From: a virus | IMG/VR virus record: IMGVR_UViG_3300037184_000495 | Coordinates: 1-25,605 of that record | DNA length: 25,605 nt | Strand: one strand, 5' to 3' | In this document: one piece after another, positions 3,229-19,627 of the stretch | Position numbering within the stretch: position 1 is the stretch's first letter | How the letters are laid out: each line of letters begins with the position of its first letter | Program-made: the position numbers and the translations under genes | Notes under the pieces: model-generated | Told to the model about the DNA's origin: nothing | Database searches by the model: none | Seen by the model: the letters and a program-made list of their open reading frames with translations, nothing else

Positions 3229-4152
3229 TTACCTATTGGATTCTTCCACGCGGGGCCAGGGTATGGGAATCGGCCCTCGTGGAGCCATATTGTCTGAGCG
3301 AAGTCCCGGACGATATGGGCGTACTACACGAACATTGACTTCACGACTTGGGTCGAGAGGGTGCCTTTGTTTCGAAAGAAACGTGGGAGGCGTTGAGAAT
3401 GTAGCCGTTCCCCCATGAACATCGGGAGAGGGAATCAGCGGAGAGACGGGTTGCTTCTCCACACTTAGTTGGTCCGGCCCGATTGTGGGAGGCCCCACAG
3501 GCACGTGCATCGAGGCCTTGTGTCGAAACTGCATCTCGATGTTCTGCACAATGCGATGCCCAAGTGGAGTGAACGCGCTTGTTCGTATGAACTGAAAGGG
3601 TGCGCTTACAACCACTGCATACCACTTATTTCCACTGTCATCTGGAATGATGGAGCCTGCAGGGGACGGAGAGCCGATGGTGATTTGCCGGCCGGTATCA
3701 AACATTCCTGCTCGAATAAGCAAGTCACGAAGAAGCCACACGTGTTCGGCGACTACCCACGCAAGATTCTCGGCTTCGAGGGATGCACGTGAGCAGCAAT
3801 TGATAGACATCGTGCCCGGCACCGTAATGCTCTTGGTCTTTCGTGCTGTTGCTGCATCGTAAGCCTGAAGATCGTCCATCCCAAACGAGTAGAACTGAAT
3901 CGGTCCACGGGTAATAGTGATGATGGGTCGCTTCATCATCACTTCTTCCTGCGTCGGTGCTTCATCCTGGATAACAATCTCTGTGGATTGCGGATCTTCA
4001 TCCCAGTGATAGCTTCGAGGAGGTGCGGCATTGAACAACCCCTGAAGAAAACCGACGAACAGGTTTCTTAGGGCTTCGAGCGGCGTGTACTTGAAACTTC
4101 CGGGGAAGTTACTCGCGAAATCAAAACCCGGTATCTTTGCTGAATCGGTCAT
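3229..4152 (-). CDS. Neck or tail-terminator-type virion protein
   Basis: 307 residues, not firmly recognised. The start is well supported: AGGAGGT lies seven bases before the ATG, and the gene overlaps the end of the preceding 141-residue gene by 32 bases. It lies directly before the sheath gene, where head-tail joining and tail-terminator proteins are usual. The middle (residues about 75-215) is a mixed alpha/beta domain, with PIITITRGPIQFYSFGMDDL followed by a helix-rich ENLAWVVAEHVWLLRDLLIRAG and strands WYAVVVSAPFQF and IVQNIEMQFR. This is compatible with a connector or tail-completion fold. The C-terminal 90 residues are rich in Pro, Ser and Arg and probably unstructured. It lacks the K-T-A peptides common in the neighbouring unknown proteins. 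Confidence 0.5.
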   Translation of the reverse strand: MTDSAKIPGFDFASNFPGSFKYTPLEALRNLFVGFLQGLFNAAPPRSYHWDEDPQSTEIVIQDEAPTQEEVMMKRPIITITRGPIQFYSFGMDDLQAYDAATARKTKSITVPGTMSINCCSRASLEAENLAWVVAEHVWLLRDLLIRAGMFDTGRQITIGSPSPAGSIIPDDSGNKWYAVVVSAPFQFIRTSAFTPLGHRIVQNIEMQFRHKASMHVPVGPPTIGPDQLSVEKQPVSPLIPSPDVHGGTATFSTPPTFLSKQRHPLDPSREVNVRVVRPYRPGLRSDNMAPRGPIPIPWPRVEESNR

Positions 4153-4546
4153 CAGGGATACCTCCTACATCGCCGTTTTTTCGCGCCTCTCGCTCTGCAT
4201 GCGCGTCCTGCATTCGCTTCAACATCTTGTGCTGAAGGTATGCGAAACCCAAACCCGATGCCATTGTTGCTGCGGGGGCTGCATATTGAAGTACACCAGG
4301 AGGGATGCCATTTCCTGTCACTGCCTTCACGCCCTGATTCAAGAGATGTGCGCCACCCATGCCGACGCCCGCTCCCAGCGCAAAGCCTCCGATGCCGCGA
4401 GCAATGTCCCATCCAGGATGCTGCCGGCGGCTTGGAGGCGTCTCTTCATCCGGTCTCACCGCCGAAGCAGCATCCGTGGCTTGGTCGACATCGCTGGCTA
4501 TCTTTATCAACTCGTCGACGAAAGCGGCACAAACTACGGGATCCAT
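4121..4546 (-). CDS. Small membrane-type protein with K-x-A motif
   Basis: 141 residues, function unknown. The N-terminus has an amphipathic stretch ending in the recurring motif (AFVDELIKIASDV, residues about 8-20). A charged Pro-rich linker follows. Then come two Gly/Ala-rich hydrophobic segments, residues about 50-76 (GGFALGAGVGMGGAHLL) and 85-108 (LQYAAPAATMASGLGFAYL), and a basic tail. The segments look like membrane helices or glycine-zipper helices and match the style of the large glycine-zipper proteins upstream. AGGTG precedes the ATG by four bases and overlaps the stop of the previous gene, so translation is probably coupled. A holin is conceivable from size and two hydrophobic segments, but the position inside the neck/tail block argues for a virion component. 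Confidence 0.6.
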   Translation of the reverse strand: MDPVVCAAFVDELIKIASDVDQATDAASAVRPDEETPPSRRQHPGWDIARGIGGFALGAGVGMGGAHLLNQGVKAVTGNGIPPGVLQYAAPAATMASGLGFAYLQHKMLKRMQDAHAEREARKNGDVGGIPDDRFSKDTGF

Positions 4547-4549
4547 ACA

Positions 4550-5452
4550 TCACCTGTACGTGGGTGGCGGGTAGAGCAGGAAGATACCCGGATAGTCTAG
4601 TTCGTCGGGCACCTTGTTGTCCAACGTCGTTGGGTTAGTGTAGTTCCTCGACGGCGTGTACGTGATGTCCTCCATTGGGACACCTAAGTCAATAGGAACC
4701 AGAAACTCGATGTCGCTGGACTCGATTCGATTCAACTGAAGTTCCTGCGTGACCACCGTTCGTTGTTCCTGTGTAGTGGAAACCGTGCGCACCGTCCAAC
4801 GGATATTCTCTGCCTCGATAAGAACATCATCCTTCTTCACCGGCGGGTAGAACGACATACGTCCCGTCGTTGATTGCTGCTGAAGGCGCCCGAAATTGGA
4901 GGGCTGTTCGGCGGCCACGGTAGGATCAATACTCGCCCAAATCTCAATAGGCTTGTAGTATCCGCGCACAAATCCTGTGTCATAGCAGGTTCGACACCCA
5001 CTAAATCGACGCTTCTGAAGCCGGGGGTTCCAGCAATCCGCGCACCGTTGTCCGAACGTACGAATCGGAAGCAGCCAGCACCTTCGTCCGATGTATTCGT
5101 GCATCAAGATATTGAGGTGCGTACGTAGTTCTTCTGCGATAAGTGTGGGCTCCGGCGCTTTCTGATACGGACCATAGAGCTTGATGTCGCCGGTTTGCTT
5201 GTTCCGAATCTGGATCTTGTAGTGGTACTGCCGGTAGATGTTTCCGACCTTCACCAGATTGTCAATGAACAAGAAGGTGTCTTCGAGCTCCTTTGATATG
5301 GGCTCAAAAGGCCCAGAGGGCGCCTCAGAACGTAACACCTGAAAGGTGTAGTCCAAGACGTCCTCCGAGGTATCTCCAATGTCCCAGGTGACTTGATTGT
5401 AGTCAAGAGACAGTGAGAGGATACGTGCCCTTCGAACCTCTACGCCGGGCAC
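4550..5452 (-). CDS. FN3-like/zinc-ribbon head-tail connector-type protein
   Basis: 300 residues. Residues about 5-100 read as a fibronectin type III-like beta domain (VTWDIGDTSEDVLDYTFQVL, then FIDNLV, YHYKIQIR and KLYGPY). Residues 137-156 carry two Cys pairs (CADC and CRTC, 12 residues between) followed by YDTGFVRGYYKPI, a zinc-ribbon-like arrangement. The rest is beta-rich and ends in Pro/Tyr-rich sequence. FN3 domains are common adhesive inserts in phage virion proteins, and small zinc knuckles occur in neck and tail proteins. The exact role is not known; the position between the large internal-type proteins and the sheath suggests a neck, stopper or baseplate-linked part. The start is GTG, one base after the TAA of the upstream gene, so it is probably translated by coupling. 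Confidence 0.55.
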   Translation of the reverse strand: MPGVEVRRARILSLSLDYNQVTWDIGDTSEDVLDYTFQVLRSEAPSGPFEPISKELEDTFLFIDNLVKVGNIYRQYHYKIQIRNKQTGDIKLYGPYQKAPEPTLIAEELRTHLNILMHEYIGRRCWLLPIRTFGQRCADCWNPRLQKRRFSGCRTCYDTGFVRGYYKPIEIWASIDPTVAAEQPSNFGRLQQQSTTGRMSFYPPVKKDDVLIEAENIRWTVRTVSTTQEQRTVVTQELQLNRIESSDIEFLVPIDLGVPMEDITYTPSRNYTNPTTLDNKVPDELDYPGIFLLYPPPTYR

Positions 5453-7303
5453 TTACATCCCACAACTTTCTTTGGATTTGTCGGCCTTTTTGGCAACGGC
5501 GGGGATGCTGGATTCGGCGGCCATCTCCGGGTACTTCTTGGCGACAGCCTTGTACACCGAGGACTTCTCCGCCGGCGAACCGAACTGACGCACGCGTGTA
5601 AGTGCATTCGCGGCATGCCTCTTATCCTCGACAGGATACTTGGGTTCGCCGGTGTCACTTTTCTTTGCAGGCACCGCAAAGTTCTTGGGCTTGATCTTGT
5701 CCCGTGCCGCCTCGGTCAGTTCCGCAGCGGCTTTCGCCATTGCAACAGCGGCTGTCTTTCCTGCATCAGGCATGCTCCGTGCACTGTAACCCATTTGGTA
5801 GTCATGGACAGGATCACCATAAATATCTGCATGCTCGCGTAACGGGGATAGAATGGGCTCTGCCGCCTCTATGCCCTTTTTATGCGCGTGAGCCCTATTC
5901 CACACATCCCCTATAATACCTCCAGTAGGCCCGCCGAGCATCGCACCCGAGGCACCGCCCATCACTGCGCCACCCAAACGATCCGACGGGTTGACTAATG
6001 CACCCAAGCCCGCGCCTCCGAGCGCGCCAACACCCGCACCCAAAAGACTCCCCTTCAAGGCGCCAGCAACCGAGCGATTCTCATTGAAGCCATGTCGTGC
6101 AGCCATTGTAGCAGATTGAAGACCAGGGATCCCCACACCCAGGTGATAAGCATTCCATCGGGCTGAATCATCCTCCGGCGAAGCCTCTTCTGCTGTCTTT
6201 GCCATTGCATGCGCCATCGCGCGCCCCGCGAAGTCGAAGTACTCCGCCTGCTTCGGCATTCCTGCAGACGCCTGCGCCGTCATTCCCTGCGGCTGTCCAC
6301 CCTGCTGCATCTGAATGAGCTGCTGCTGTTGCTGAAAGTCACGGTCGGATTGTTGTCGTTGTATCTTTGCTTGCTGTCGCATCTGGAGACCCGAGCCGAC
6401 GAGACCCGAGCCGGTGACCGCGGCTCCCACAAGATGCCCAGGAGTCTCGGGTGCGGCCATCATCTTTGCTCCCCAACTCTTTGCCCCACTAAGTGCGCCC
6501 TGCAACTTTGGAGCGGCAGCAGTTGCCATGTTCTTCGCGCCAGAGGCTAGGCCTGGAGCGGCCTTGGCAACCGAACCCCCTAATCCCTTCGCGGCGCCCG
6601 CCAACATACTGCCGATACCCGCCAGTTTTGGCTGTTGCGCAGGTGCGGGGGTCATTGCCTTGTTCACCGCACTGCCCGCGAGAGACGAGACAGCCGCACC
6701 ACCAAGTGCCTTGGCGGCAGGAACAACGAGCCCCTTTGCAGCATTGAGAGCGGCACCAATCCAAGCCTCCTTGGGCATAGAATCTTGAAGCAACCACTGT
6801 GTGAAGTGGTCCTGCGCCTGCTTTTCCGCATCGGGTGCAGGCGGTGCTCCTACCGGAGGAGGTGGACCGGGCGGAGCCTCTTCGACACCCTCCTCGGTCT
6901 CTTCTTCGCCTTCCTCACCCGTTTCTTCGGCATGACGATACTTTGAAAGCTCAAGATCGAGCTGTCGCTTCTTCAAGCGGATCATGTCCACCTGCGAGTA
7001 CAAGTCTTCCTCGGACTCGGAGGGCGGACGATTCATTCGCTTCTCGATACGCTTTGCTTCGATGCCGAGGAGAGCCTCTTCGAGGCCCATCGCTTTGTCG
7101 TACAGCGGAGTGTCTTCGTAACCCTCAAGCCAAGACTGCTTGTCATCACCATCACACCCGAAGGCTTGCTTGATGTTGCCGTTCATTGAAGCAATCTTCT
7201 GAATGTCCTCCAATGGAAGCGTGAGCATTGTCTCCGTAAGACGGTCTTCTGCTTCTTTGTTCGAAGCCTGCTTGATCAAAACGTGGGTAAATGCGTCGAG
7301 CAT
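5453..7303 (-). CDS. Large Gly/Ala-rich internal-type virion protein with YP..D..HA.NAL.RV domain
   Basis: 616 residues from the ATG at 7303, chosen because AGGAG lies about seven bases upstream and the gene then begins just after the stop of its neighbour; an in-frame ATG at 7420 has no such site. The order is: helical N-terminus with K-x-A motifs (LIKQAS, IQKIAS); a charged coiled coil (about 65-125); an acidic and proline-rich linker; Gly/Ala-rich hydrophobic helices (about 180-305); a Gln-rich helix (305-335); a FAGRAMAHAMAKTAEEA segment (358-374); a glycine zipper (412-467). The C-terminal module (about 538-593) has FAVP, KYPVEDKRHAANALTRV and KKYP, a pattern I recognise from many phage structural proteins (DUF6582-like). 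It is probably an internal or ejected virion protein; that role is inferred. Confidence 0.6.
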   Translation of the reverse strand: MLDAFTHVLIKQASNKEAEDRLTETMLTLPLEDIQKIASMNGNIKQAFGCDGDDKQSWLEGYEDTPLYDKAMGLEEALLGIEAKRIEKRMNRPPSESEEDLYSQVDMIRLKKRQLDLELSKYRHAEETGEEGEEETEEGVEEAPPGPPPPVGAPPAPDAEKQAQDHFTQWLLQDSMPKEAWIGAALNAAKGLVVPAAKALGGAAVSSLAGSAVNKAMTPAPAQQPKLAGIGSMLAGAAKGLGGSVAKAAPGLASGAKNMATAAAPKLQGALSGAKSWGAKMMAAPETPGHLVGAAVTGSGLVGSGLQMRQQAKIQRQQSDRDFQQQQQLIQMQQGGQPQGMTAQASAGMPKQAEYFDFAGRAMAHAMAKTAEEASPEDDSARWNAYHLGVGIPGLQSATMAARHGFNENRSVAGALKGSLLGAGVGALGGAGLGALVNPSDRLGGAVMGGASGAMLGGPTGGIIGDVWNRAHAHKKGIEAAEPILSPLREHADIYGDPVHDYQMGYSARSMPDAGKTAAVAMAKAAAELTEAARDKIKPKNFAVPAKKSDTGEPKYPVEDKRHAANALTRVRQFGSPAEKSSVYKAVAKKYPEMAAESSIPAVAKKADKSKESCGM

Positions 7304-7313
7304 AGTCCTCTCC

Positions 7314-9641
7314 TTACTTTCGATAGAGTCGGCGGCGAGCTGCGCTCGTCTTGTTCGCCATTTGGGGCAACGATTGCGCCATACTGGGGTCCGGCCCTGG
7401 AGGACCACCGGCATTGGCATTCATATCAGGCGAACCTGCAGGGGGCGCCGCACCAGGCGCTGTTTGTTGGTCGGGAGACGCACCTGCGGGTCCGCCCGGA
7501 GGCCCACCGCCACCCTCACCCGCCGCTGTCGGATTCGGCGGCCCGCCAGCAAGTCCTGCATCGGGCGGGACACCCTCCGCCGGTCCCTGCGTACCCTCTG
7601 GAGGTGCTGCAGCTGCCGCTTCCTGCTCCGAGGCGCCGCCCGTAGTCGCCGACAGGTCCATCGCTGCATTCATGTTCGGGTCTTGGGAGGCGAGCTCCAT
7701 CAGCTTCATGCGCAAGTCTTGTTGCGCAATACGGAGTTGTGCGGCCGTCTCGGTTTGCTTGAGAGCGTCGTCCTTCGCCTGCAAGGCCTGGTCAAGGGCC
7801 GACTTCACCTTAGTGTCCGCGGTCTGCGCGTCCTGCATTGCTTGGGCCGCTTGTTGTTGAATCTGCTCAACTTGCGCCTGTGCGGCCTGCACTTGTTGCT
7901 GCGCCTCCATCTGCGCCTGTTGCACTTGCTTTCGATAGTACGACGCCTCATTCTGGCTTTGCATCTGACGACCCAGTTGTTCGGCGTGCATGTAGTTCGT
8001 AGGCTCGAGTTCCTGGTTGTCTGTCGGTGACGCCATCGGCGCTTCTTGCTCGGGCGCACCGGCCGCAGCATCGTCGGCAAGTTTGACGGCCCAACGAGCC
8101 ATACGAGCCGCCATCTTATCGATAGCGCTTTCTTTCTTCGGTTTGTGGCGAGCGATGTCGGCTTCTGTCCCGAGTTCGCCACCGGCGTGGTGCCCGAGAT
8201 GTGCACCAAGAGCGGCGCCGCCCAAGGTACCCAGCACACCACCCTTGCTTAGTTTGTGTCCCGCGATGCCACCGGCCGCCGCACCCCCCAGTGCGCCGAG
8301 CACTTTGCCCATACGCTCTCCGCGGCGGGCGGATTCTCGATGATGTTCGGCAGAAATATTGGCGACCGCCCGTTGCCGACCCGTCTCTTTGAGCTCGTTG
8401 TCGGAAAGCATCTCCTTGGCAACCTTCGCGAGATATCGAGCGGCTGCTGTCTTCGTCTGACCTGCGGATGCCTGTGAAATCATTCCTCCGCCACCGTAAG
8501 CGGCCTGCTGCAGGGCCAACCGGCGCAAGTCTTCGTTCTGCGCCGCAAGAGCCTCTGTTCGCGCCCGTGTAGCTACTGAGGAACCCAGATGTGACCCCAG
8601 TAAACTGCCACCAAAGGCGCCCATCTGCTGGAGTGCGTTCTGTGTCTCGGGATCCTTTGACAAATACGCGGCACCGGTACCGAGTGCGCCACCCACGGCG
8701 CCGCCAAGAGCACCGCCGGCAAAGGCGCCTGCTCCAGACATGAAGCTGGAATTGAGGCGCTGCGCAGGGTCCATCAACGCGCCTGTGATGGCGGAACTCG
8801 CTGTGGCGGGGATAGTTCCCATCGCTGTTCCCGTCAGCACATTCGCCAGTCCGATATCCGCTGTTTTGCGAAAGCCGTGGGCGGCTTGCGCTACCATTCC
8901 ACCGCCTTCATGGTGTTCGGGGGGTTCTACGCCGGCTTGTTGTTCGGCGGCTTCAAACTCGGGGCTCTCGATCGCTTCCTGCTCCGGCGTCTCATGCTCT
9001 TCGTGCTTGGCAAGCATGTCCGGCGGCCTCGGTGTCATCGGCTTGTTGCCGGCATCGGGCGGCATCGCCATCCAGTAGCTATCGAGGTGCTCCTGGCACT
9101 GGCCCATAAAGCACTTGACCTTCTCCTTCATCGGGTTCTGCCCAAGTACGTTGAGCAACTCATGGTAGCTGTTGATCATTTCTTGTTCAGCGCGAATCAT
9201 CCGCTGTGCGACAGCAATCGGCTCCGTACTTGGAGGCGGCATATCCACTTCTGGAATATGCGGGGCGCCGAGGAGCACGGTCATGCGCTCTACAAGGTAC
9301 TCAAAGGCGCGACGATGATCCCATTCTCCACTGTCAATCGCGCGCTTTACCCCTCCAGCGAAAGGGCCGCGCACACTCTTGACGTAGATAAAACCTGCGT
9401 TGATAAGGCGCAGAAGCTTCATCGCACAGTTGCCCATAAGCTGCACGGCGAACTCCACCGGGACTTCAAACTGTCCCTCGAAGACACCGGTTTCATCGGG
9501 TGGGTCTTGCCAACCCGCAGTCTTCGCCATCATCTGCGCCACCTTCACAATCTGTGGGCGACGAGCATTGACGAAGAAGGCGCTGGCATCCGCCAACGGG
9601 ATTTCCATGTCACCAAGTAGGGCTTTTTCAAAGCTGTTCAC
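7314..9641 (-). CDS. Very large virion protein: ferritin-like bundle, glycine zippers, Gln-rich coiled coil
   Basis: 775 residues, starting at GTG with GGAGGT six bases upstream. Residues about 1-45 include MMAKTAGW, the recurring K-T-A motif. Residues about 57-195 look like a four-helix bundle resembling ferritin/bacterioferritin-like proteins, with a DHRRAFEYLVERMTVLLGAP helix, an AEQEMINSYHELLNVLG helix and a QEHLDSYW helix end. After an acidic linker come two glycine-zipper regions (about 303-355 and 441-490) separated by a K-T-A-A-A-R-Y-L-A-K-V-A-K segment. A Gln/Ala-rich coiled coil follows (about 555-650), then a Pro/Gly-rich disordered tail (660-760). The mix of membrane-type zippers and long coiled coils suggests an internal, ejected or tape-measure-like protein. 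It is short for a tape measure in a phage of this type, and the identity is uncertain. Confidence 0.6.
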   Translation of the reverse strand: MNSFEKALLGDMEIPLADASAFFVNARRPQIVKVAQMMAKTAGWQDPPDETGVFEGQFEVPVEFAVQLMGNCAMKLLRLINAGFIYVKSVRGPFAGGVKRAIDSGEWDHRRAFEYLVERMTVLLGAPHIPEVDMPPPSTEPIAVAQRMIRAEQEMINSYHELLNVLGQNPMKEKVKCFMGQCQEHLDSYWMAMPPDAGNKPMTPRPPDMLAKHEEHETPEQEAIESPEFEAAEQQAGVEPPEHHEGGGMVAQAAHGFRKTADIGLANVLTGTAMGTIPATASSAITGALMDPAQRLNSSFMSGAGAFAGGALGGAVGGALGTGAAYLSKDPETQNALQQMGAFGGSLLGSHLGSSVATRARTEALAAQNEDLRRLALQQAAYGGGGMISQASAGQTKTAAARYLAKVAKEMLSDNELKETGRQRAVANISAEHHRESARRGERMGKVLGALGGAAAGGIAGHKLSKGGVLGTLGGAALGAHLGHHAGGELGTEADIARHKPKKESAIDKMAARMARWAVKLADDAAAGAPEQEAPMASPTDNQELEPTNYMHAEQLGRQMQSQNEASYYRKQVQQAQMEAQQQVQAAQAQVEQIQQQAAQAMQDAQTADTKVKSALDQALQAKDDALKQTETAAQLRIAQQDLRMKLMELASQDPNMNAAMDLSATTGGASEQEAAAAAPPEGTQGPAEGVPPDAGLAGGPPNPTAAGEGGGGPPGGPAGASPDQQTAPGAAPPAGSPDMNANAGGPPGPDPSMAQSLPQMANKTSAARRRLYRK

Positions 9642-9643
9642 GA

Positions 9644-10096
9644 TTAGACCTCCACCACAACAAAGTAGCCGTCCAAGCGTGCTTTGCTGCCTACTTCGAC
9701 CAGGCGCGGGACCGCGCCGACAAGGCTGTTGAAGAATGTTCCCACAGTATCGAGGGAATCGCTAAACCCAAAGACAGCGTTTGCGGTTCCCGTCTTCGAT
9801 ATCTTAACGCCTGCACTGGAAGACGGAGCAGAGAAGCGCCAAACATTGTTCCGAAACGACGGACGAATGGCGGCATTCACTGCAACGATCTGCGCCGCAA
9901 TCTGTGCTGCAGATAACCCGACACCGGTGTTGTCTACGAAGGTGACGACAGCTGCTGGTGCTGTGAATATCAACTGCAGCCCGTTCAATCCAGGAACGGT
10001 ACCCCCTTGTTGGAGTGTCAACGGGCCTCCGTTGACACCTCCTTGAAGAAAGAAGTTCACGTCTTCAATTGTGTCGAACGATTGCATCTGCAACAT
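9644..10096 (-). CDS. Small beta-module protein related to sheath inserts
   Basis: 150 residues. Residues about 37-112 (starting LNGLQLIFTAPAAVVTFVD, then a helix SAAQIAAQIVAVNAAI, then WRFSAPSSSAGVKI and NAVFGF) follow the same pattern as the three inserted modules in the tail sheath protein: short strand, threonine/valine strand, Asn-containing helix, strand, and a terminal F-G-F/L-G. The shared fold is inferred by eye. It may be a virion decoration, tail or neck component. AGGAG lies six bases before the ATG. It ends two bases before the start of the 775-residue gene, in the same operon. Confidence 0.55.
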   Translation of the reverse strand: MLQMQSFDTIEDVNFFLQGGVNGGPLTLQQGGTVPGLNGLQLIFTAPAAVVTFVDNTGVGLSAAQIAAQIVAVNAAIRPSFRNNVWRFSAPSSSAGVKISKTGTANAVFGFSDSLDTVGTFFNSLVGAVPRLVEVGSKARLDGYFVVVEV

Positions 10097-10111
10097 GGAG
10101 AACTCCTGAGA

Positions 10112-10618
10112 CTAGTAACTGAGATACGAGCAGTTTATGGCAGACAGCTCACTACTCAGACCGTGGTTATTGACACCCAGAATCTGATTGATGTTCATCG
10201 ACGTTTTCACACGAAGTTTCATCTGCTCGATGTCGGCTTTGAAGTACTGGAGCCAGTTCATAATGAGCGGCGTTTTGTCGTTGACGCCGACATTGATGCC
10301 GCCGTTGGAATAATTGATATGGTTTCGAGTTTGAAGAAGTCCGACGGACTCGAGGAGTGAGCACACCACCATGCGCGTAAGCAGCTTTTGCTGATTGAGC
10401 ATCAGCAGGTCTTCGAGCCTGGCAGTCCCAATTAGTGGAGGGGTTCCATTGAAGTCGGACATGGCGTCCACGATAGCCCACAGGATCATACGGTCGCTGG
10501 ATTCCTCGCCTTTGACGATTCGATTCAGTTCCGGATGGTCACGCATGAACAGGCGAATCGTCTGCACGAATGCCTGCATCACGGGGTTCTGTGTTTGGAC
10601 GCTCTGTAGCCGCTCCAT
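10112..10618 (-). CDS. Neck/head-completion-type protein, unknown
   Basis: 168 residues, mostly helical (FVQTIRLFMRDHPELNRIV, RMILWAIVDAMSDFNGTPP, KLLTRMVVCSLLESVGLL), ending in a Tyr/Ser-rich C-terminus. The start ATG overlaps the TAA of the previous gene by one base (TAATG), and AGGA lies about seven bases upstream, so the two genes are translationally coupled. Size, helical content and position after the capsid gene fit a head-completion or adaptor protein. I recognise no specific family. It has no K-T-A motif. Confidence 0.5.
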   Translation of the reverse strand: MERLQSVQTQNPVMQAFVQTIRLFMRDHPELNRIVKGEESSDRMILWAIVDAMSDFNGTPPLIGTARLEDLLMLNQQKLLTRMVVCSLLESVGLLQTRNHINYSNGGINVGVNDKTPLIMNWLQYFKADIEQMKLRVKTSMNINQILGVNNHGLSSELSAINCSYLSY

Positions 10619-11118: not shown

Positions 11119-11135
11119 AGCTTACTCCAAAGTAG

Positions 11136-11166: not shown

Positions 11167-11182
11167 TCGTCACGGGCCAATA

Positions 11183-11202: not shown

Positions 11203-11209
11203 GTATGGA

Positions 11210-12331
11210 CTACGAGGCGTTCACCTGTGGGAACTTCAAGCCCATACCGACGCGGTTGTTGATCGCGCCAAGTTGGTCTTCGGCCACCGGGATGAAACTC
11301 GAAAGCAGCGCGTCTGCGTTGTTCGGGCTTGCGTCCGCCGAGTAGAGCTCCATCTTGCGGCACGAAGCGATGTTGATAACCGCCATGGCGATGTCTTCCC
11401 AGGCCTGGAACGTGATCATGTTCGCAATCTTGTCGATATAGAACTTGGTCTGGTTCAAGACGTAGAACTTGCCGAAGAATTCGGGAGCCGTGAAGAAGTA
11501 CACGTTGCCGCGACGAAGGATGTCCGTCTTGACGGTGCGAATGTACGGTCGTCCAATCAGGAGGTTGTACTTGTAGCCGTCAACAGTAGTTTCCGATTGG
11601 ATACGGTCACCGTTGTCTTCCACAGTCCACGACAACACGTCATCGAAGTCCACCTCGGTGAGGAGGAAGCGCTCGCAACGAAGACGATTGCCATCAATCA
11701 GCTTGAAGCCTTCCACGAGGTCTTTGCGCTGAATGGGGAGAACCACTGCACTATTGGTGGGGGCCACGCGAGCCAGCTCACCTTTGCGAACGGAGAACTC
11801 CACGGGTGGGTTGGCGCCGGCGAGCGAAGAAGCATTGAGCGTGGTGATGACACCACCGTTCGCTTCTTGCTGGAGGGCTTGGACTGCGGATTCGACATGG
11901 ATGACGAACTCTCGGTCTTCGATTTCTTGGATGTCCTTCACGGAGTTCTCTTCGATGACCTTCGTGATGGGCATTTCGTAGGCAAGGAGTTCTTGCTCTG
12001 TCTTTTGAAAGACTTCCGAGGAGATGGTGAAGAACGCAACTTCCGCCTTCTCGCCGCGGATGAACCTCGCCGTGGGTTGACCACGGAACGAGATCGCCAT
12101 CGCGCGAGACTTCGGTTCGACGTCCACGATCTTCACGAGGGTGTCGTGCTTGGTGGAGCGTTGGCAGTCCGTACGCGTGACTTGCTCCGGGGGGATGACT
12201 TTGCGAACGAACGAGACTTCGCGGAGGCGGTCTCGGATGTAGGAGCCGCCGAATTGCGCGAGCTTCTCTTTGCCGCCCGGTTCCCCGAGCTTCGTGTTGA
12301 ACATATCGTTGACTGTGCGAGCCGATGCCAT
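11210..12331 (-). CDS. Major capsid protein
   Basis: 373 residues, probably the HK97-fold subunit that builds the head shell. The N-terminal arm is helical and polar (MASARTVNDMFNTKLGEP). An extended beta region around VTRTDCQRSTKHDTLVKIVD resembles an E-loop, and the body mixes helices with strands. The C-terminal part (GNVYFFTAPEFFGKFYVL, then MITFQAWEDIAMAVINIASC) has the strand-helix pattern common in phage capsid proteins. It sits after protease and scaffold-like genes, preceded by a possible decoration gene and followed by a terminator, as expected for the most highly expressed late gene. AGGAG lies nine bases before the ATG. It lacks K-T-A motifs. The family call rests on pattern and position; a structure prediction would settle it. 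Confidence 0.75.
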   Translation of the reverse strand: MASARTVNDMFNTKLGEPGGKEKLAQFGGSYIRDRLREVSFVRKVIPPEQVTRTDCQRSTKHDTLVKIVDVEPKSRAMAISFRGQPTARFIRGEKAEVAFFTISSEVFQKTEQELLAYEMPITKVIEENSVKDIQEIEDREFVIHVESAVQALQQEANGGVITTLNASSLAGANPPVEFSVRKGELARVAPTNSAVVLPIQRKDLVEGFKLIDGNRLRCERFLLTEVDFDDVLSWTVEDNGDRIQSETTVDGYKYNLLIGRPYIRTVKTDILRRGNVYFFTAPEFFGKFYVLNQTKFYIDKIANMITFQAWEDIAMAVINIASCRKMELYSADASPNNADALLSSFIPVAEDQLGAINNRVGMGLKFPQVNAS

Positions 12332-12373
12332 GTTTTTGTACTCCTTCTAATCCAGTAAGCTGGTTTGCACAGC

Positions 12374-12919
12374 TTAGTAAAAAACGCCGCCCTTGATGCG
12401 AAGCCACCCACTGTTCTCAGCAGGAAGGCGTGTAACGTAGCCGACGAATTGATCGGTGTCGCTTGCGCCACCCCAACCAACCAATCCACTGAGAACACGG
12501 GGGCCGTAGACGCCGTTCGTTTGAATGCTGGCGACTTTGACCTTTTGGAAGCGCGTGGTGATGGCAAGGCCACTACCGACGACGGCGGACGCATCGTAGA
12601 TGAGCGTTTCACATTCCCACTGATTCAACCAAATGATGGGGGGTTTGCGGTCCGCCATCGCTTGGATATCCGTGCGGCCGTTTTCCGCCCACACCGGCCA
12701 GGAAAGGATGGCGCCTGCAGAATTGCCGACGGCAGCAATGTTCGCGGAGCGAACCAACTTGCCGGTCGAATCGAGAGTCATCCACTCTCCATCGAGATAA
12801 GACAGTGGATTCCTCGGATCCGCAAGGGTGGGATCCGTGAGCGGGAAGTCACGACGAACGAGAGGGATAACGTCCGTGACCGGCCGGAAGTTTTCGTTTT
12901 GCGTACCAAAAGTAGCCAT
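12374..12919 (-). CDS. Possible capsid decoration or stabilisation protein
   Basis: 181 residues, beta-rich and aromatic, without membrane segments. It contains YLDGEWMTLDSTGKLVR, a short strand-turn-strand pattern typical of head decoration proteins that trimerise on the capsid surface, and ends VTRLPAENSGWLRIKGGVFY. It lies immediately before the major capsid gene in transcription order, where decoration proteins often lie. AGGAG precedes the ATG by nine bases. The decoration role is inferred from position and composition. A weak six-base-pair inverted repeat (AAGCTG/CAGCTT) overlaps its stop codon and has no T-run. Confidence 0.5.
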   Translation of the reverse strand: MATFGTQNENFRPVTDVIPLVRRDFPLTDPTLADPRNPLSYLDGEWMTLDSTGKLVRSANIAAVGNSAGAILSWPVWAENGRTDIQAMADRKPPIIWLNQWECETLIYDASAVVGSGLAITTRFQKVKVASIQTNGVYGPRVLSGLVGWGGASDTDQFVGYVTRLPAENSGWLRIKGGVFY

Positions 12920-12961
12920 TGTATTGAACTCCTATGAACTGAGGTTGAATCTTACCGTGGG

Positions 12962-13369
12962 TTATTCGATATCTCCGAGAATGTACCTCTCGAAGTCCGT
13001 GGAGGTGCCAGACGCATTGACATTGGTGGCGACCGAGGCGGCCTTCATCATGTCTGGTCCTGTGAGATTGACTGCCTCACGAAGTACCGCAAACCCCTGC
13101 GGGTCTACATGCGCTCGCTTTTCGAGATGCTCAACGAGCGCCTCGAAGGGGACGTCGGTGTGCATGCCCTTATCGTGCATGTCCATCGCCACCTTCTCCG
13201 CCTCCATACGGAGACGAAGAGTATTGTTGTCGGCAGCCAACTTCGCATTGTCTGCTGCCAGCGCATCGCGTTCCACGGTTGTTCGATGAAGCGCAATGGC
13301 CCCATCGCGGAGCACTTGCGCGACCTTCACGTTGTCGAATACATTCTTTGCCTTAGCTGCTGTTGCCAT
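12962..13369 (-). CDS. Coiled-coil head-assembly protein with K-x-A motif
   Basis: 135 residues. Residues about 25-65 (ALHRTTVERDALAADNAKLA and following) form a clear coiled coil. The C-terminus (residues 105-130, PDMMKAASV then STDFERYIL) resembles the C-terminal region of the 250-residue protein upstream (PDMNKTASV then GDYERAL), so the two share a module. Two K-x-A motifs are present (NVKVAQ, MMKAAS). AGGAG six bases before the ATG overlaps the TAG of the 732-residue gene. Size, coiled coil and place between protease and capsid suggest a scaffold or core protein; this is inferred. Confidence 0.5.
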   Translation of the reverse strand: MATAAKAKNVFDNVKVAQVLRDGAIALHRTTVERDALAADNAKLAADNNTLRLRMEAEKVAMDMHDKGMHTDVPFEALVEHLEKRAHVDPQGFAVLREAVNLTGPDMMKAASVATNVNASGTSTDFERYILGDIE

Positions 13370-13378
13370 CGTGCTCTC

Positions 13379-15577
13379 CTACATCCTTCGTGCGTTGAAG
13401 CCCGAAGCAGCTTGTGGGTTGTTCGGGGCCATGCCTGGCATCATTGACGTCTTGGTCTTCTTCGGCTTTGCAGCCGGCTTACTTGCAGCCGCTGTCTTCG
13501 GTGCAGGTTTCTGACCAAACTGTTGTGCGACCTTCTCCATCACCGCACGGGCCGCTGCTATCTGCACAAGTTGTGCACTCTGTGCACTCGCAATCTTGGC
13601 GCCGGCTTCGTTGGTGTGTTCGAAAACGCGTTGAAGAACATCGTCTTTGCTCGCCGACAATGCCGGCTCGTTCACAACGGCACCCAGGTCTTTCTTGGGG
13701 TCGGCCTTTGCTTCACGACGTGTGTAGTTGATAGCGGCCTGCGAAGACTCAAGCATGCGCTTTTGCGAATCCACATCGCTCGGCTCCGGTGGCTGCTCTT
13801 CGCCGCTTTCCGATGCACCGTCGGGTGGATTGGGACCGATGTCCTTGATAGTGCCCGCACTGATTTGCGCGGGGAAGATCGCGTCTTCTGCCGTCTTCTT
13901 CAAACCGAGAGCGGCAAGATTTCGCTCGTAGACAGAAGCGGTCTTACCCGCCTTGGCTGCCTTTGCCATGCGTGCAGCCGCTGTCTTGAATTCTAATTCA
14001 TCGCCGCCGCCCCCGAGTTCCGCATTGTGAACGGCATTCTGGTGACCCAGGAGCGCAATACGCTTAGCCCGTTCTTGTTCGAGTGCATCAGACTTTGCAA
14101 GCGCCGCCGCTCGTTGGTCCTTGTCACCAAATTGCTCGCCGATGGACTTTCCCGTAATGTGCCCCAGGTACCCGCCACCAATTGCGCCAGCAGCAGTACC
14201 CAGGCCTGGATGTCCGATGAGTTCACCGAGCGCGTGCCCACCAACACCGCCACCAATTGCACCCAGTGTAGTACCAATAGTGGAGCCGCGATTGACGGGC
14301 GTATTGGCGCGATTGAGTTCATTGTAGGCGGTATCGAGTTCCGGTTCAACTTCGTGCAGAGGGCGTGGGTCCGCGGCTTTCTTCGTCTTGGCCGCCGCCT
14401 TCGCCATCGCAGCCGCCATCTTGGGAAGAGGAGCTCCCGTAATCATGGCGTGTCGAGCCGCATCGTAACCGGTAGCGGGGGCCACAGCAGCTTTCTGTGG
14501 CATGAGGCTTTGTGCATGCTGGCCAATAGTCTTGCCCGTGTATCCATGAATGGCGCCCATCGTACCGCCTGCCGCTGCACCAATACGACCACCTTCTGGG
14601 CCAGCAATAGCACGTCCAATTAGCCCGCCTGCCGCCGCACCGCCGAGACCCTTTAGCACTGCCATGCCCGTACCGCCAACCTTCACAAGCTGCGGCCGCC
14701 CCTTCGCATCGAAGGCCACTTTGGCGAGGCCGAGAGCAATGAGGTTGTTTGCGTGCGCCGATGACAGCTTTTGTTCCGCGGTCGTGAGCGTCGTCTTCTC
14801 ATTCGGAATGGGCTCGGTCGGTTGCTCGCCGTGCTCCATATGGTCATTCGTCTCCATCCCTGTACCGGGGTCGGAGGGACGCGTGGGGTCTTTTTGCTGT
14901 GCCGGCGACATCGGAGGGGCCTCGTTGGCCTCACCCATGTTGGTGTCCGCGGGGTTCTCACCGGAGGGAGGGGTGTTCAATTCCAGTGAACCCGGGCCCT
15001 CGCCCGGACCCACACCCGCTGTCGTCGCAGAATCCAGCTCAATCGCCGCAAGTTTGGGATTCACCTGACGTGCTAGGTAATCCAAGGCGTTCGCCAGCTT
15101 GGTCGTCACCGCGGTGGGAATCGAAGAGGGGGCCGGTGCGGGCTTCGCACTTGCCGTCTTCACCTGCGCCGGGGGCGTACCCCCTGCATTGGCAATCTGC
15201 CTTGCGGCTTCATAGCTGATATCTACCCGAGATGCCGAGCCCGCCATTGCGGATTTGATCAACTCGTGCAGCGGGGGTCGTCCCGTCATTGTATTCATTG
15301 CACTCTCCTGTGAAGCTGTCTTTGGTAAAAACTCAAGGCCCCTGGGGGACTGGGACTTCTGCTCGGTGGCACCCGCATCCGGGGTGATAGGTAGTCCCGT
15401 ATTCACGCGCGAGTAGGTTGTTCGTCCACCGAGTCCAGAAGGGCCTTTTTGACCTGGAGCCGGCTTGTTTTCAATCGCGGGTTGGGGAACAGGAGCCTGG
15501 CGTGCAGTCGCAGTACTCGGATCAGGAGTACCCGACCCAACTGCATCTGCAAACTTCGCACGCCAGCTCGTGTTCAT
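13379..15577 (-). CDS. Large glycine-zipper internal-type protein with many K-T-A motifs
   Basis: 732 residues, not a known family. It alternates disordered Pro/Ser/Glu-rich stretches with helices. Two glycine-zipper regions (about 305-353 and 431-480, with GGAAAGGLIG and GAIGGGVGGHALG) look like paired membrane-type helices. The K-T/x-A motif occurs many times (LPKTAS, QVKTAS, FKTAAARMAKAAKAGKTAS, KKTAED, PKTAAA). A short segment is duplicated: NLIALGLAKVAFDA (279-292) and NLAALGLKKTAEDA (553-566). The N-terminal ATG has only AGG five bases upstream, whereas an internal in-frame ATG at 15298 has AGGAG at ideal spacing, so a second, 639-residue product is likely. The protein probably lies inside the head and may be cut by the phage protease (inference). 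Confidence 0.6.
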   Translation of the reverse strand: MNTSWRAKFADAVGSGTPDPSTATARQAPVPQPAIENKPAPGQKGPSGLGGRTTYSRVNTGLPITPDAGATEQKSQSPRGLEFLPKTASQESAMNTMTGRPPLHELIKSAMAGSASRVDISYEAARQIANAGGTPPAQVKTASAKPAPAPSSIPTAVTTKLANALDYLARQVNPKLAAIELDSATTAGVGPGEGPGSLELNTPPSGENPADTNMGEANEAPPMSPAQQKDPTRPSDPGTGMETNDHMEHGEQPTEPIPNEKTTLTTAEQKLSSAHANNLIALGLAKVAFDAKGRPQLVKVGGTGMAVLKGLGGAAAGGLIGRAIAGPEGGRIGAAAGGTMGAIHGYTGKTIGQHAQSLMPQKAAVAPATGYDAARHAMITGAPLPKMAAAMAKAAAKTKKAADPRPLHEVEPELDTAYNELNRANTPVNRGSTIGTTLGAIGGGVGGHALGELIGHPGLGTAAGAIGGGYLGHITGKSIGEQFGDKDQRAAALAKSDALEQERAKRIALLGHQNAVHNAELGGGGDELEFKTAAARMAKAAKAGKTASVYERNLAALGLKKTAEDAIFPAQISAGTIKDIGPNPPDGASESGEEQPPEPSDVDSQKRMLESSQAAINYTRREAKADPKKDLGAVVNEPALSASKDDVLQRVFEHTNEAGAKIASAQSAQLVQIAAARAVMEKVAQQFGQKPAPKTAAASKPAAKPKKTKTSMMPGMAPNNPQAASGFNARRM
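15296..15309 (-). promoter_or_regulatory. Internal ribosome binding site and in-frame ATG
   Basis: AGGAG, then six bases, then ATG in the reading frame of the 732-residue protein at codon 94. This is a better initiation site than that of the annotated start. The resulting protein would begin MNTMTGRPPLHELIKSAMAG, closely resembling the motif-bearing N-termini of neighbouring proteins (for example FVDELIKIAS). It may be the main start or an additional one. Confidence 0.5.
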
Positions 15578-15583
15578 GACTCC

Positions 15584-16336
15584 CTAGACCTTTGACCAAT
15601 CAACGGGATACTTGGCGGCTTCGAGCAGTTCCAGCGAGCGGATATTGAGTGCACGTTCGTAGTCGCCGGTGCCCACCACAGAGGCCGTCTTGTTCATATC
15701 GGGGACGCCGAGCGTGAGAATCGCATTCAGTCGTTGCGTGACTTCCGGCACCTGAATGCCGGCTTGGCTTGCAAGCTTGACAGCATTGCGCGCGGCTTGA
15801 ACGTCGAACGCGGAGGCTTCCTTCTTGGCGGCAGGCTTCGCATTCGCGGCGAACTCCGGAGGAACGCCCTTCTTCTTCGGTGCAGCCACTTCCGCGGCAA
15901 TCTTGGTGCGTTCATCGGTGAAGGAGTGTGCCATCACGCGACCGAGGTAGTCGGCTTCCGCAACCTTCTGTTGCCATTGGTGCATCGCGGCGAATTGAGC
16001 CTGAGCCTCTTTCTTTTCCTCAGCCTCCTCTTTCTTTTCCTCGCCCTCGGCCTCCTCTTCCTCGCCCTCGACCTTTTTCTTTTCGCCTTCGGCTTCTTCT
16101 TCTTCGCCTTCGGCCTCTTCTTCGGCGGCTCCGCCCTCTTCCGCGAGTTTGGCATTCCATGTGGTCCAAAGTTCTGCGCGCTGTCGTGCAGTCAGGGCCG
16201 TCAAGTCGATGCCTTGGTCGCTGGCAACCTTCGCGAACAGTTCAAGGTGAGCGATTTTGGTTTGTTCTTTTTGCACTTGATCGCCAAAACCGTGAGTGTT
16301 GTACATCGCAGCAAGCGTGGGATTCATTCCTGACAT
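15584..16336 (-). CDS. Scaffold-like protein with E/K-rich helix
   Basis: 250 residues. The N-terminus (NPTLAAMYNTHGFGDQ) is followed by K-x-A motifs (TKIAHLELFAKVASD). Residues about 66-112 are almost entirely Glu, Lys, Ala and Gly, probably a long charged single helix. A YLGRVMAHSFTDERTKIA segment follows at 130-147. The C-terminal third is helical and carries PDMNKTASV then GDYERAL (212-230), shared with the 135-residue protein. High charge, helix content and a position straight after the protease resemble the scaffolding or core proteins of large phages; this is inferred, and no family is firmly recognised. GGAG nine bases before the first ATG supports this start over the Met at codon 4. 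The 101 bases upstream hold no gene. Confidence 0.55.
   Translation of the reverse strand: MSGMNPTLAAMYNTHGFGDQVQKEQTKIAHLELFAKVASDQGIDLTALTARQRAELWTTWNAKLAEEGGAAEEEAEGEEEEAEGEKKKVEGEEEEAEGEEKKEEAEEKKEAQAQFAAMHQWQQKVAEADYLGRVMAHSFTDERTKIAAEVAAPKKKGVPPEFAANAKPAAKKEASAFDVQAARNAVKLASQAGIQVPEVTQRLNAILTLGVPDMNKTASVVGTGDYERALNIRSLELLEAAKYPVDWSKV
16001..16141 (-). repeat. Low-complexity Glu/Lys/Ala codon tract
   Basis: A purine-rich tract in the scaffold-like gene, made of imperfect repeats encoding units such as EEEEAEGE and KKEEAEEKK. It is coding, but prone to expansion or contraction by slippage. Confidence 0.7.
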
Positions 16337-16437
16337 TTATTTGTTCTCCATGTGAGTGTTCGGTCAGTTCACGTGTTCCTCGAAGGGGTTCGCCCCTCTC
16401 CACGCTGGCTCTTCGCCTTTGAGTAGGTTGTAGCAGT

Positions 16438-18081
16438 CTACACGATACATCCACAAACCTCGTTTTTGAAAGCATCACGCAGATAGCAGTAGGACAGTGA
16501 AGTAAATACTTCGGAGGGAGAGGCGGATGCAACCTTCTGAAGATCAAAGTCTTTGGAGGTGGCAACCTTCTGAATCAGTACTTGACTATAGGGGGCCATA
16601 TCTAAGAGCTGTTCTCGATAGCCGTTGTACGCAGCACCAATCTTACGGAGTAGTTCCGAGGAATGGGAAGAACCCTTCGGGTCTACATCTCCAGAATCAG
16701 AACTGATAATTGTCACGCGCCGTTCAATTGCCGGAGCCAATGCAGTCCGTTCTTGAAACAGCGGCATCAACATACGTGCAAGTGCGGGAAGAAAAGAGGT
16801 GAAGCCCATGTCACAAGGTGTGGATTCTTCAACCTGCGGGAATGTGATGTTCTTGTCCTCAAGTGCGTCCGCCAAAGGCGCCTGCCCACCCCGAATCAGA
16901 ATGATTCGTTGGAACTCTCGGGGACGAAGAACCATCCCCAGACCGCTTGTTGTACTGAGGGCATTGGACAAAGGGACGGAGGACAGTGCATGGAGCATGT
17001 CGCTTGATAGGTCTGGCTCGTTCTTCGTCATCAGCGGAATGGCCTTGGCAGCATCGGGAATCGAACTGACTTCCTTGTCTATTTCCGCGCTCTTGTCCTT
17101 CGCATCTTTTCCGAGGAAGGCCGTCTTCAGAATGTCATCTGAAATGGACGCCGTCTTCTGGATTCCTTCCCACCAAGGAGCTGTCGAAACAGCGACTTGC
17201 ACAGACGCAGTCTTCTCCGGACCCACTGGTTCATTCTTCGAGATGTGCACCAGTACCTTCGCCGTTCGGTCGGCTCCGATGAAGACGAAGCTGATGTCGA
17301 AGAATCGCGGGTAGTCGTTGTACACAAACACCTTTCTTCCGTCGGGAAGAATTCGGTTCATGTACTTCAGACAGTACTCATCGTAGTCATCGCGCGTGAT
17401 AGACAGTCCCGTAATGGGATCCTTCTTATGGTATTCAAGGATGGCCTGTCCTGGAGACGCGTGCCTCTTTGAGTCATACGTCGCCTTTGCCTTGTTGTAC
17501 TTGTCCCAGTCGAGCGTAATGGAGCTGGTATCAAAGGGGACGCGGGAACCCATTGAAACATCTGGAAACATTCCAGCCGTCAACTTATCCCAGACGGGCG
17601 TACCCCCGAACTCGAGACACTTGTCGTAGTCAACGCGCACGACCAATTCGACCCGCTTCATCTGGTCGTTCCAGATGGCGAGCTCCACTTCGCCGTAGGC
17701 CCGACTTGGATCCTTGTTCTTATGGTGGGCGAACGGGTGTGCGCTATAGAAAGACGGAAACCCGTAGGGCCAATTAGCCGAAAGAGGTCGATCTACAATC
17801 GGATTGTCCGTCCATCCCGGCGGGCAGTGAATCAACCCCTCTTCGGGAAAATGATCGCCGTTTATATTCGAACCGTAATACTCTCCGGCACCCAAAGCAT
17901 TTACGAGAACGTATTGCGAGCCCTGACGTCGACGAAGGCTCGAGATATAGTTGGAAACCGCGGGGAGAAGCCCAGCACCCGCCGTCTTCTCAAACTCACG
18001 GTCCGTTTTCTTGGAGCCAAAGAGAGGGATCGCGGTGTACCCAAGCTCGTTTCGATTGAGAAAGGTACTGACTTTGAGCAT
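16438..18081 (-). CDS. Prohead (capsid maturation) protease with long C-terminal extension
   Basis: 547 residues. Residues about 57-83 (YVLVNALGAGEYYGSNINGD, then HFPE) and 113-180 form the part that resembles phage prohead proteases. A His-rich segment HPFAHHKNKD leads into AYGEVELAIWNDQMKRVELV, and FPDVSMGSRV contains a candidate catalytic Ser at about 176 in a V-S-M-G context comparable with V-S-I-G of herpes/HK97-type serine proteases; His 115, 119 or 120 could be its partner. Such proteases cut scaffold and capsid N-termini during maturation. At 547 residues it is more than twice the usual length. The C-terminal half carries several K-T/V-A-S peptides (EKTASV, IQKTASISDDILKTAF, LQKVAS) that could be self-cleavage sites. 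No clear ribosome binding site is visible; the gene starts six bases after its neighbour. The protease call is moderately sure. Confidence 0.6.
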   Translation of the reverse strand: MLKVSTFLNRNELGYTAIPLFGSKKTDREFEKTAGAGLLPAVSNYISSLRRRQGSQYVLVNALGAGEYYGSNINGDHFPEEGLIHCPPGWTDNPIVDRPLSANWPYGFPSFYSAHPFAHHKNKDPSRAYGEVELAIWNDQMKRVELVVRVDYDKCLEFGGTPVWDKLTAGMFPDVSMGSRVPFDTSSITLDWDKYNKAKATYDSKRHASPGQAILEYHKKDPITGLSITRDDYDEYCLKYMNRILPDGRKVFVYNDYPRFFDISFVFIGADRTAKVLVHISKNEPVGPEKTASVQVAVSTAPWWEGIQKTASISDDILKTAFLGKDAKDKSAEIDKEVSSIPDAAKAIPLMTKNEPDLSSDMLHALSSVPLSNALSTTSGLGMVLRPREFQRIILIRGGQAPLADALEDKNITFPQVEESTPCDMGFTSFLPALARMLMPLFQERTALAPAIERRVTIISSDSGDVDPKGSSHSSELLRKIGAAYNGYREQLLDMAPYSQVLIQKVATSKDFDLQKVASASPSEVFTSLSYCYLRDAFKNEVCGCIV

Positions 18082-18087
18082 GATGCT

Positions 18088-18639
18088 TTACGGGCTGTGT
18101 TTCTGCCATTGGGGGGCGAGTTCGTCTAACTTCTTCTCCAGCTCAAGGCCATGAACAGTCTGAGCCAGACCTGAATATGGATCGGACGGTTTGAGCGCGT
18201 TTGAAGCGAGGTCTTTGCCGACACTCGGTGCCATTGATTGCATTGCACGGGAGAGCACGCCCTGATCGGGCTGCTTCATGCTTTCTCGACGGGCTTCCAC
18301 GACATGCTTTCCCGCACCTTCGGGGTTGCCCACCATTTGGTGCATGTACGCACTGGCCACAAGTGGGTCGGCCGCGAACTCGGGAGACATTCGGTGAAGA
18401 GAGTCGAACATCATCTTCGCCTTCTTTGGGTTCTGCTCGTGAAACTGGCGGACATCGTCTGAGCTGTTTTCGAGCATAGCGTTGTACCGAGAGTTCTTCA
18501 TCGCGCTGTTGTACAAGTGGCTTGCAATGACGGGAGCGCCTGCGAGGGCCAAACCCGCGCCCACGCTGATGGCTCCGTGTTGAAGGGCGTCCTTCCAGTC
18601 CGCGGTCTTGGCCATAAAGTATTCATCGATTGGATTCAT
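18088..18639 (-). CDS. Virion-type protein with one hydrophobic segment, unknown
   Basis: 183 residues. It begins MNPIDEYFMAKTADWKDAL, with the recurring K-T-A motif near the N-terminus, followed by a Gly/Ala-rich hydrophobic stretch (residues about 22-43, AISVGAGLALAGAPVIASHL) that could span a membrane. The rest is polar and helical. The start overlaps the stop of the upstream gene as ATGA, with GAGGTG just before it, so translation is coupled. The role is unknown; it resembles its larger neighbours in having a motif, then a hydrophobic helix, then a charged tail. Confidence 0.55.
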   Translation of the reverse strand: MNPIDEYFMAKTADWKDALQHGAISVGAGLALAGAPVIASHLYNSAMKNSRYNAMLENSSDDVRQFHEQNPKKAKMMFDSLHRMSPEFAADPLVASAYMHQMVGNPEGAGKHVVEARRESMKQPDQGVLSRAMQSMAPSVGKDLASNALKPSDPYSGLAQTVHGLELEKKLDELAPQWQKHSP

Positions 18640-19607
18640 CGCACCACCTCACCATAGTGTTGATTGACCGAACGCTCAAAGTGAACGAGCTGCTCGATGC
18701 CTTCCAAAATCTCTTGTTGTGCGGCACGAAGATGCGCAATCTTCGTCAGCGTTTCCTGGTAGGCATCGAAGGTCACAACCAGTGGGTGCTTGTCGTTGAC
18801 GACGACGTTTCGACTTGCAGTCTTTTCAAAGGAGGCGCCGAGTTTGTCCCACGAGGAAAAGACTTCCTGTTGAAGTCGTGGACCCATGTACGCGAAAGCA
18901 GCCTTTACCATTTCCGGGTCTGTCGCCTTTGTCAACTGCCAAGCCTGCACGATCTCTCCGAGGGACACACCCGAAAGCGACGCCTGCTTGACGCTGTTGT
19001 ACATCTCCTCTGAAATTGAAAGAAGATCCACTTCCAGCTCACCGATTTGTGATGTGATGTTGTCCCGGGCTGTTGCCAACTTGTCGCGCATCTCGTGCAC
19101 GTCGCTCATGGGGTGTGCAAACGGAATAGGTGCCGCTTGTTTGTCCACCGCGAACGCCTCCGCGAGTACGTCGTCCGAACGACTTTGTGCAGAGGCAGTC
19201 TTGGCCATACCACCCCGAGAAGCCGTTTTGACGTTCGGCGTGTGCGAGTAGTCAAGGTTTCCGCGGTCAAATACGGTTCCCCCACCGCCATCATTGAGGT
19301 CTTGAAGAACCGTGTTGTACTCCGCGGGCCCGCCCTCGAAGACCACATACTTATTTGCCTCGCCCTCTTTTTTGAACTCCGTGAGGAAGGCGTCCGTGTT
19401 TGCGAATTCCACAACCCGCTTCACCTGTTCTGGAGAAAGGCCCGCGGTCTTGATGGTCTGAACCACCGCTTCACTGAGTGTGCTGCAAACCCCCGAGGAG
19501 TACAGATTCGAGGCATGCTTTCCGAACGTTTCGAGTTCTTCTCCGCTCACGCTTCGCGCGGAGGATTGTTGTAGGAGCGTCTGCGGAGGGAGGTCGTATT
19601 GGCTCAT
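18636..19607 (-). CDS. Motif-rich virion-type protein, unknown
   Basis: 323 residues, mostly helical with a Gly-rich turn (LQDLNDGGGGTVFDRG, about 101-116). It carries one of the densest sets of K-x-A motifs in the window: TIKTAG, NVKTASRGGMAKTASA, VDKQAA, SVKQAS, MVKAAF, FEKTASR, LTKIAH. It lies between terminase and protease, a place often held by portal in other phages, but it has neither the length nor the pattern of a portal protein. It is probably a head-interior or assembly protein (inferred). Its start is 20 bases from the divergent start of the helix-turn-helix gene, and only a weak ribosome binding site is visible. Confidence 0.55.
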   Translation of the reverse strand: MSQYDLPPQTLLQQSSARSVSGEELETFGKHASNLYSSGVCSTLSEAVVQTIKTAGLSPEQVKRVVEFANTDAFLTEFKKEGEANKYVVFEGGPAEYNTVLQDLNDGGGGTVFDRGNLDYSHTPNVKTASRGGMAKTASAQSRSDDVLAEAFAVDKQAAPIPFAHPMSDVHEMRDKLATARDNITSQIGELEVDLLSISEEMYNSVKQASLSGVSLGEIVQAWQLTKATDPEMVKAAFAYMGPRLQQEVFSSWDKLGASFEKTASRNVVVNDKHPLVVTFDAYQETLTKIAHLRAAQQEILEGIEQLVHFERSVNQHYGEVVR

Positions 19608-19627
19608 GGTTTATACCTAGAAGTAAC

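Follow-up and report, generated by a model that had tools for sequence, protein, structure and literature searches.

A short lysine-dependent peptide recurs across otherwise dissimilar head proteins of this phage and of its relatives. We propose that it is very probably the site recognised and cut by the phage's prohead protease, its N-terminal form being the end of a removable capsid-targeting propeptide. The window, that is the whole stretch of 25,605 nucleotides that was analysed, is a 25.6 kb phage-genome fragment from an IMG/VR record. Its ORFs were called mechanically, and nearly all of its late genes lie on the minus strand. An earlier note on this DNA had named nine proteins as carriers of the peptide, and each is present at the length claimed, the 616-aa protein starting at an ATG at 7303 within a 655-aa ORF. 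To these we add a tenth carrier, overlooked until now, at 25123-25605 (Table 1). This fragment shares 43-56% identity with the C-termini of 722-745-aa proteins, and most of its full-length relatives have an FEK[TSV]A-like site at residues 12-19.

Table 1. Features of the window, with coordinates, strand and supporting evidence (x, ratio of observed to expected sites)
Feature	Coordinates	Strand	Evidence
141-aa protein, N-terminal tag-like peptide AAFVDELIKIAS, K15-I-A at 4496-4504	4121..4546	-	fits the [AS]-F-x-D-E-L-x-K-I-A tag
616-aa protein, N-terminal site K11-Q-A-S (7265-7273) and further sites	5453..7303	-	family 9.1x
775-aa protein, N-terminal sites K33 and K40, glycine zipper	7314..9641	-	family 3.4x; K40/A42 in 100% of aligned homologs
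Major capsid protein, K23-L-A in N-arm conserved, without hydrophobic P3 residue	11210..12331	-	capsid family comparison
135-aa protein, directly upstream of decoration and capsid genes	12962..13369	-	family 7.4x
732-aa head-cluster protein with glycine-zipper segment	13379..15577	-	family 6.8x; glycine-zipper match weak, below cut-off
250-aa acidic head-cluster protein, candidate scaffold or core	15584..16336	-	family 9.4x; K27/A29 kept in 98%
547-aa prohead (head maturation) protease, probable zymogen with N- and C-terminal propeptides	16438..18081	-	PHROG, fold, invariant H120/S176
K516-V-A-S, distal C-terminal site of the protease	16528..16536	-	51 family sites at residues 476-550
K309-T-A-S, predicted C-terminal processing site of the protease	17149..17157	-	77 family sites at residues 276-350; K309 in 70%
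Catalytic domain of the protease, about residues 37-269, nearly motif-free family-wide	17275..17973	-	0 sites at 101-275 in 60 sequences
K32-T-A34 site just before the catalytic domain	17980..17988	-	K32 in 100%, A34 in 97% of homologs; model's disordered segment 1-8
183-aa head-cluster protein, N-terminal site K11-T-A-D at 18601-18609	18088..18639	-	homolog support
323-aa head-cluster protein, site-rich	18636..19607	-	family 12.9x; at least one site in each member
C-terminal fragment of a ~730-aa virion-cluster protein, site-bearing, ends at window edge	25123..25605	-	homology; family 9.7x

The recurrence of the peptide in head proteins is confirmed and is stronger than first stated. In the form K[TIVQA]A[SAEDG], it occurs 35 times in the nine named proteins (3702 aa), where 5.2 copies are expected and the maximum was 14 in 2000 composition-preserving shuffles, and twice in the thirteen other proteins of the window (4650 aa). 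KTA alone was found 22 times against 2.6 expected in shuffled proteins. The earlier note had asked whether Lys, Ala and Thr content could account for such frequencies; the counts are far above those of shuffled proteins. The motif discovery it proposed was carried out on all gapped residue triplets with no motif assumed, and KTA, K.AS and M.K.A came out as the top three. Recurrence among the nine carriers therefore stands, but the 183- and 141-aa proteins hold one good copy each and are not significant alone. The family of the former has 30 sites in its first 45 residues versus 2.6 expected, with K11 kept in 90% of aligned homologs, unlike the 141-aa protein, which has no homologs in the set.

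Each window protein was also tested together with its homologs. Enrichment of 2.9-12.9x, in counts that are non-independent events because homologs are related, was found for the families of the 323, 183, 547, 250, 732, 135, 775 and 616-aa proteins and of the 25123 fragment. Sites crowd at N-termini: the first 45 residues hold 56 sites versus 2.0 expected in the protease family, and 67 versus 2.9 in that of the 250-aa protein. The terminase, its upstream 309- and 166-aa proteins, the regulator, the decoration protein and the 168-, 300- and 307-aa families are at 0-1.5x, with the terminase and neck families at about 1x. With five sites each, two small families (166 and 150 aa) are at 2.6-3.4x, and the 2.1x of the capsid family is due to a single conserved internal match. 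Thus, the absence of the motif from terminase, decoration, FN3-like, neck and sheath proteins, first noticed in the window, is true of their families too (for the sheath, one homolog only).

Pooling the enriched families of relatives (269 sequences) gave the consensus [L/M/F]-(E)-K-(T/V/I/L)-A-(S/A/E), which was refined on these same sequences and was replicated by the blind search, by Salmonella phage Arash and Vibrio phage D69, and by an IMG/VR scan for the tag. When the remaining positions are fixed, the key position has Lys at 21x expectation and every other residue at 1.3x or less (Arg 1.3x, Glu 1.3x). Glu, the mark of the T4 LxE, phiKZ and SPN3US sites, is thus not the key residue here, though it is favoured directly before the Lys. 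Leu, Met and Phe are at 18-21x two residues before the Lys, so that a T4-type hydrophobic residue is present at this place. The Ala position is at 13.7x for Ala, with some Ser and Gly (~3x), Ser follows at 21x, and information falls to background beyond about -4 to +4. We found no description of this motif in the open-access literature.

From homology and modelling, we identify the 547-aa protein as the prohead protease. The protein itself has no direct family match, and a direct profile alignment with T4 gp21 was not significant; the assignment is based on the match of 42 of 55 protease family members to PHROG_18299 'head maturation protease' and on a fold nearest to that of T4 gp21. The AlphaFold model of the core has a pLDDT of 85.5. 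When its catalytic domain was searched against solved structures with Foldseek, T4 gp21 came first (5jbl_B, probability 0.97, E 0.034) with nothing else credible, and prohead proteases recur among the matches to viral models in BFVD. H120 and S176 are invariant across the family, the third catalytic residue (D262?) being assigned by eye only, and the protease and capsid genes belong to the same head cluster. As a side observation, most homologs have a zinc-ribbon-like CSICG...YC.H insertion, of which the window protein (16438-18081, minus strand) lacks the first cysteines.

The earlier note had also seen copies in the protease itself, and these proved to flank its catalytic domain family-wide. 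Among 193 sites in 60 sequences, 56 lie at residues 26-50 and about 130 beyond residue 275, with none in the stretch 101-275, and both flanks of the core are disordered in the model. The motif flanks the catalytic domain at an invariant Lys and avoids the fold, the pattern that autoprocessing would give, and this placement fits a probable zymogen. It also bears on a different reading, in which the peptide would be an uncut docking or packaging motif that binds scaffold or protease and is retained in the mature virion. A patterned amphipathic peptide at the N-termini of unrelated proteins would suit such a motif, many internal copies could act as multivalent contacts, and some copies are in structured parts: the 25123 protein has a 685-aa relative whose low-confidence model places certain invariant copies (K275, K522) in structured segments. 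However, the arrangement around the protease fold is the one that autoprocessing predicts, and recognition spans only about 6-10 residues, in which Arg cannot replace Lys. We consider retention of an uncut motif to be unlikely.

A protease site would also be consistent with the N-terminal form of the peptide. Proteins of two related genomes (G001 and G002) begin with peptides like AFLDELQKIAA and AFYDELRKIAE; one of them has a pyrophosphatase-type domain, found in PHROGs under DarB-like and minor head proteins. The 141-aa protein of the window starts with the same tag form. Scanning IMG/VR for F-x-D-E-L-E-K-I-A returned 111 stretches, versus 10 for the reversed pattern and 6 when Lys was changed to Arg, a control that has the advantage since Arg has three times the codons. 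Of 108 cases, 65 have the tag Lys no more than 20 residues from the ORF start and 84 no more than 45 (uniform expectation 35). At position -7, outside the scan pattern, Ala, Ser or Gly is found in 120 of 130 contexts. Conservation stops at the Ala that follows Lys-Ile, and the end of the tag, L-E-K-I-A, is the core motif of the putative protease site. The protease was found on 36 of 49 tag contigs tested versus 2 of 16 control contigs; both long control contigs (2/2) carried it, and among contigs under 100 kb it was on 11 of 20 with the tag versus none of 14 controls (p = 0.0006).

The carriers of the tag include helicases, a NUDIX protein, an acetyltransferase, peptidases and a DarB-like match. 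The 68 tagged proteins have only the tag in common, with a mean column identity of 7% and different Pfam families, and a short N-terminal peptide common to otherwise unrelated proteins is what a capsid-targeting sequence is expected to be. Together with the dissimilarity of contexts beyond about five residues, this diversity makes it very improbable that the carriers descend from one duplicated gene or repeated domain, as could be suggested by the Arash and D69 homologs of the 250-aa protein, which hold similar repeat units with motif copies. In these two homologs (L002 21410-22177; L003 21337-22146), each near-repeat unit has a copy (VELVKEAS ... LEKAAAV).

The motif accompanies this protease well beyond the window. 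A tblastn search with the 547-aa protein led to Arash, three Vibrio phages and Bacillus phage G, and blind triplet discovery returned the same motif for the Arash and D69 late regions and, more weakly, for the phage G locus; it did not return it for the first 100 kb of Arash. A profile scan of IMG/VR gave at least 181 relatives, of which 80 were retained; in most of these the motif ranks among the most enriched triplets, and enrichment exceeds 3x in 66 of 69 loci. Each of the other three loci contributed a single protein to the test. Across five genomes that are complete or nearly so, the excess is limited to between four and six proteins, encoded in the head cluster or close to it, and the Arash proteome without its enriched proteins has 35 sites against 32.7 expected. 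Five Arash proteins labelled 'structural protein' in the record (gp220, gp221, gp222, gp223 and gp242) have 2 to 8 sites each. A further copy was noted at the extreme N-terminus of the RNA polymerase-like proteins of Arash and D69 (L002 3294-7871; L003 8559-13196), which start MP-K-[SK]-A-S.

The strict form [LMF].K.A[SAG] gave observed and expected counts of 33/9.2 in Arash, 32/8.3 in D69, 38/10.7 in G001, 39/9.7 in G002 and 27/9.0 in G004, and of 9 versus 3.4 in the first 100 kb of phage G. It is near chance in T4 (11/7.1), SPN3US (10/9.8) and PaBG (14/11.2), and its Arg-for-Lys version is at 0.5-1.6x in the five clade genomes. PaBG has a remotely related protease, but extension of the rule to this phage was rejected since no motif excess is found there. 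That the motif would be a by-product of Lys/Ala-rich helical or coiled-coil composition, as the helical, Ala- and Lys-rich nature of several carriers might suggest, is the least credible reading, since composition-preserving shuffles, Arg-for-Lys and reversed-order controls are all near chance and other phages have no excess.

The two readings offered in the earlier note, a protease site and a packaging tag, are both consistent with these results: the motif is restricted to families near the prohead protease in about 70 loci and flanks its fold, its excess is absent from phages with other head proteases, and the tag is found on unrelated proteins of genomes that have the protease. The two are probably one system. 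We infer cleavage, import and ejection from the analogy with T4, in which gp21 acts at LxE, both cleaving core proteins and taking off the propeptides used for targeting (PMC9026906, PMC5694885). The window protease resembles gp21 in its fold class, its invariant His and Ser, its head-cluster location, the hydrophobic residue two before the key residue, its many candidate substrates and its own termini, which are likely processed (PMC9026906). It differs by the key Lys in place of Glu, by a strong additional demand for Ala two residues on, and by its other substrate proteins. The capsid targeting sequence of T4 IPIII is formed by about ten N-terminal residues, imports unrelated proteins and ends in a protease site (PMC9026906). 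By comparison, the tag consensus here is [AS]-F-x-D-E-L-E-K-I-A, import is a prediction, and the carriers are helicases, NUDIX, DarB-like and many small proteins of uncultivated phages. Other large phages are also known to cut internal proteins, with redundant propeptide sites, as with phiKZ gp175 (S/A-x-E) and SPN3US gp245 (A-x-E) (PMC10052503, PMC9026906). Unlike the Lys site described here, both are Glu-specific, and SPN3US has no excess of the Lys motif.

By this analogy, the carriers would be scaffold or core proteins, internal and probably ejected proteins, and the protease zymogen, with one to many copies each. Once the prohead is complete, the protease would cut at [LMF]-(E)-K-x-A-(S), trimming both core proteins and propeptides in the way that gp21 does at its LxE sites. 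Close to an N-terminus, the peptide would end a short (~10-20 residues) amphipathic propeptide, best represented by [AS]-F-x-D-E-L-E-K-I-A, that would probably bring its carrier into the prohead in the manner of the capsid targeting sequence of T4, before being removed. For the scissile bond, we modestly favour cleavage after Lys over cleavage after Ala, as Lys is the least replaceable residue; the Ala/Ser bond is also possible since tag conservation ends at Ala and Ser is preferred after it. These two candidate bonds are framed by HK97 gp4, where the cut is after Lys103 and before Ser104, and by herpesvirus assemblin, which cuts Ala|Ser. We know of no distributed tag system for either.

Few phages have known cut sites or targeting sequences, found one at a time by proteomics, and the present rule is clade-wide and read from sequence. 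It would place dozens of unknown proteins in the head or give them an internal role, offers a short peptide as a candidate tag with which proteins could be loaded into phage heads, and predicts enzymes that would enter the host with the DNA (helicases, NUDIX, DarB-like). More broadly, it seems somewhat more likely than not that a large clade of 150-200 kb phages, most of them uncultivated, combines a Lys-dependent prohead protease with a portable tag that imports and releases many unrelated cargo proteins, and that the injected set can be read from their genomes.

The capsid may behave differently. In residues 18-27 of its N-arm, GKEK[IL]A is near-invariant in close relatives. When solved structures of relatives with visible mature N-termini were sought, the phage G capsid alone was found, and its chain in 6wkk begins near residue 2. 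As the N-arm copies have no P3 hydrophobe and the phage G chain starts so early, capsid N-arm processing may not occur in this lineage. The portals of close relatives have no terminal site, by which they differ from that of SPN3US. We also considered the 722-745-aa motif-rich protein as a portal and rejected it, since a profile placed the true portals elsewhere in the genomes.

Glycine-zipper segments are present in the motif-rich 732- and 775-aa proteins, which suggests membrane insertion of these internal proteins. The terminase ORF (20329-23451, minus strand) encodes 1040 aa versus 598-636 in relatives, and its additional middle part is intein-like with a homing-endonuclease-type motif. Finally, a DNA-binding-like gene (HTH by eye) at 19478-20332 on the plus strand, opposite to the late genes, adjoins the terminase and is conserved in G001, G002 and G004.
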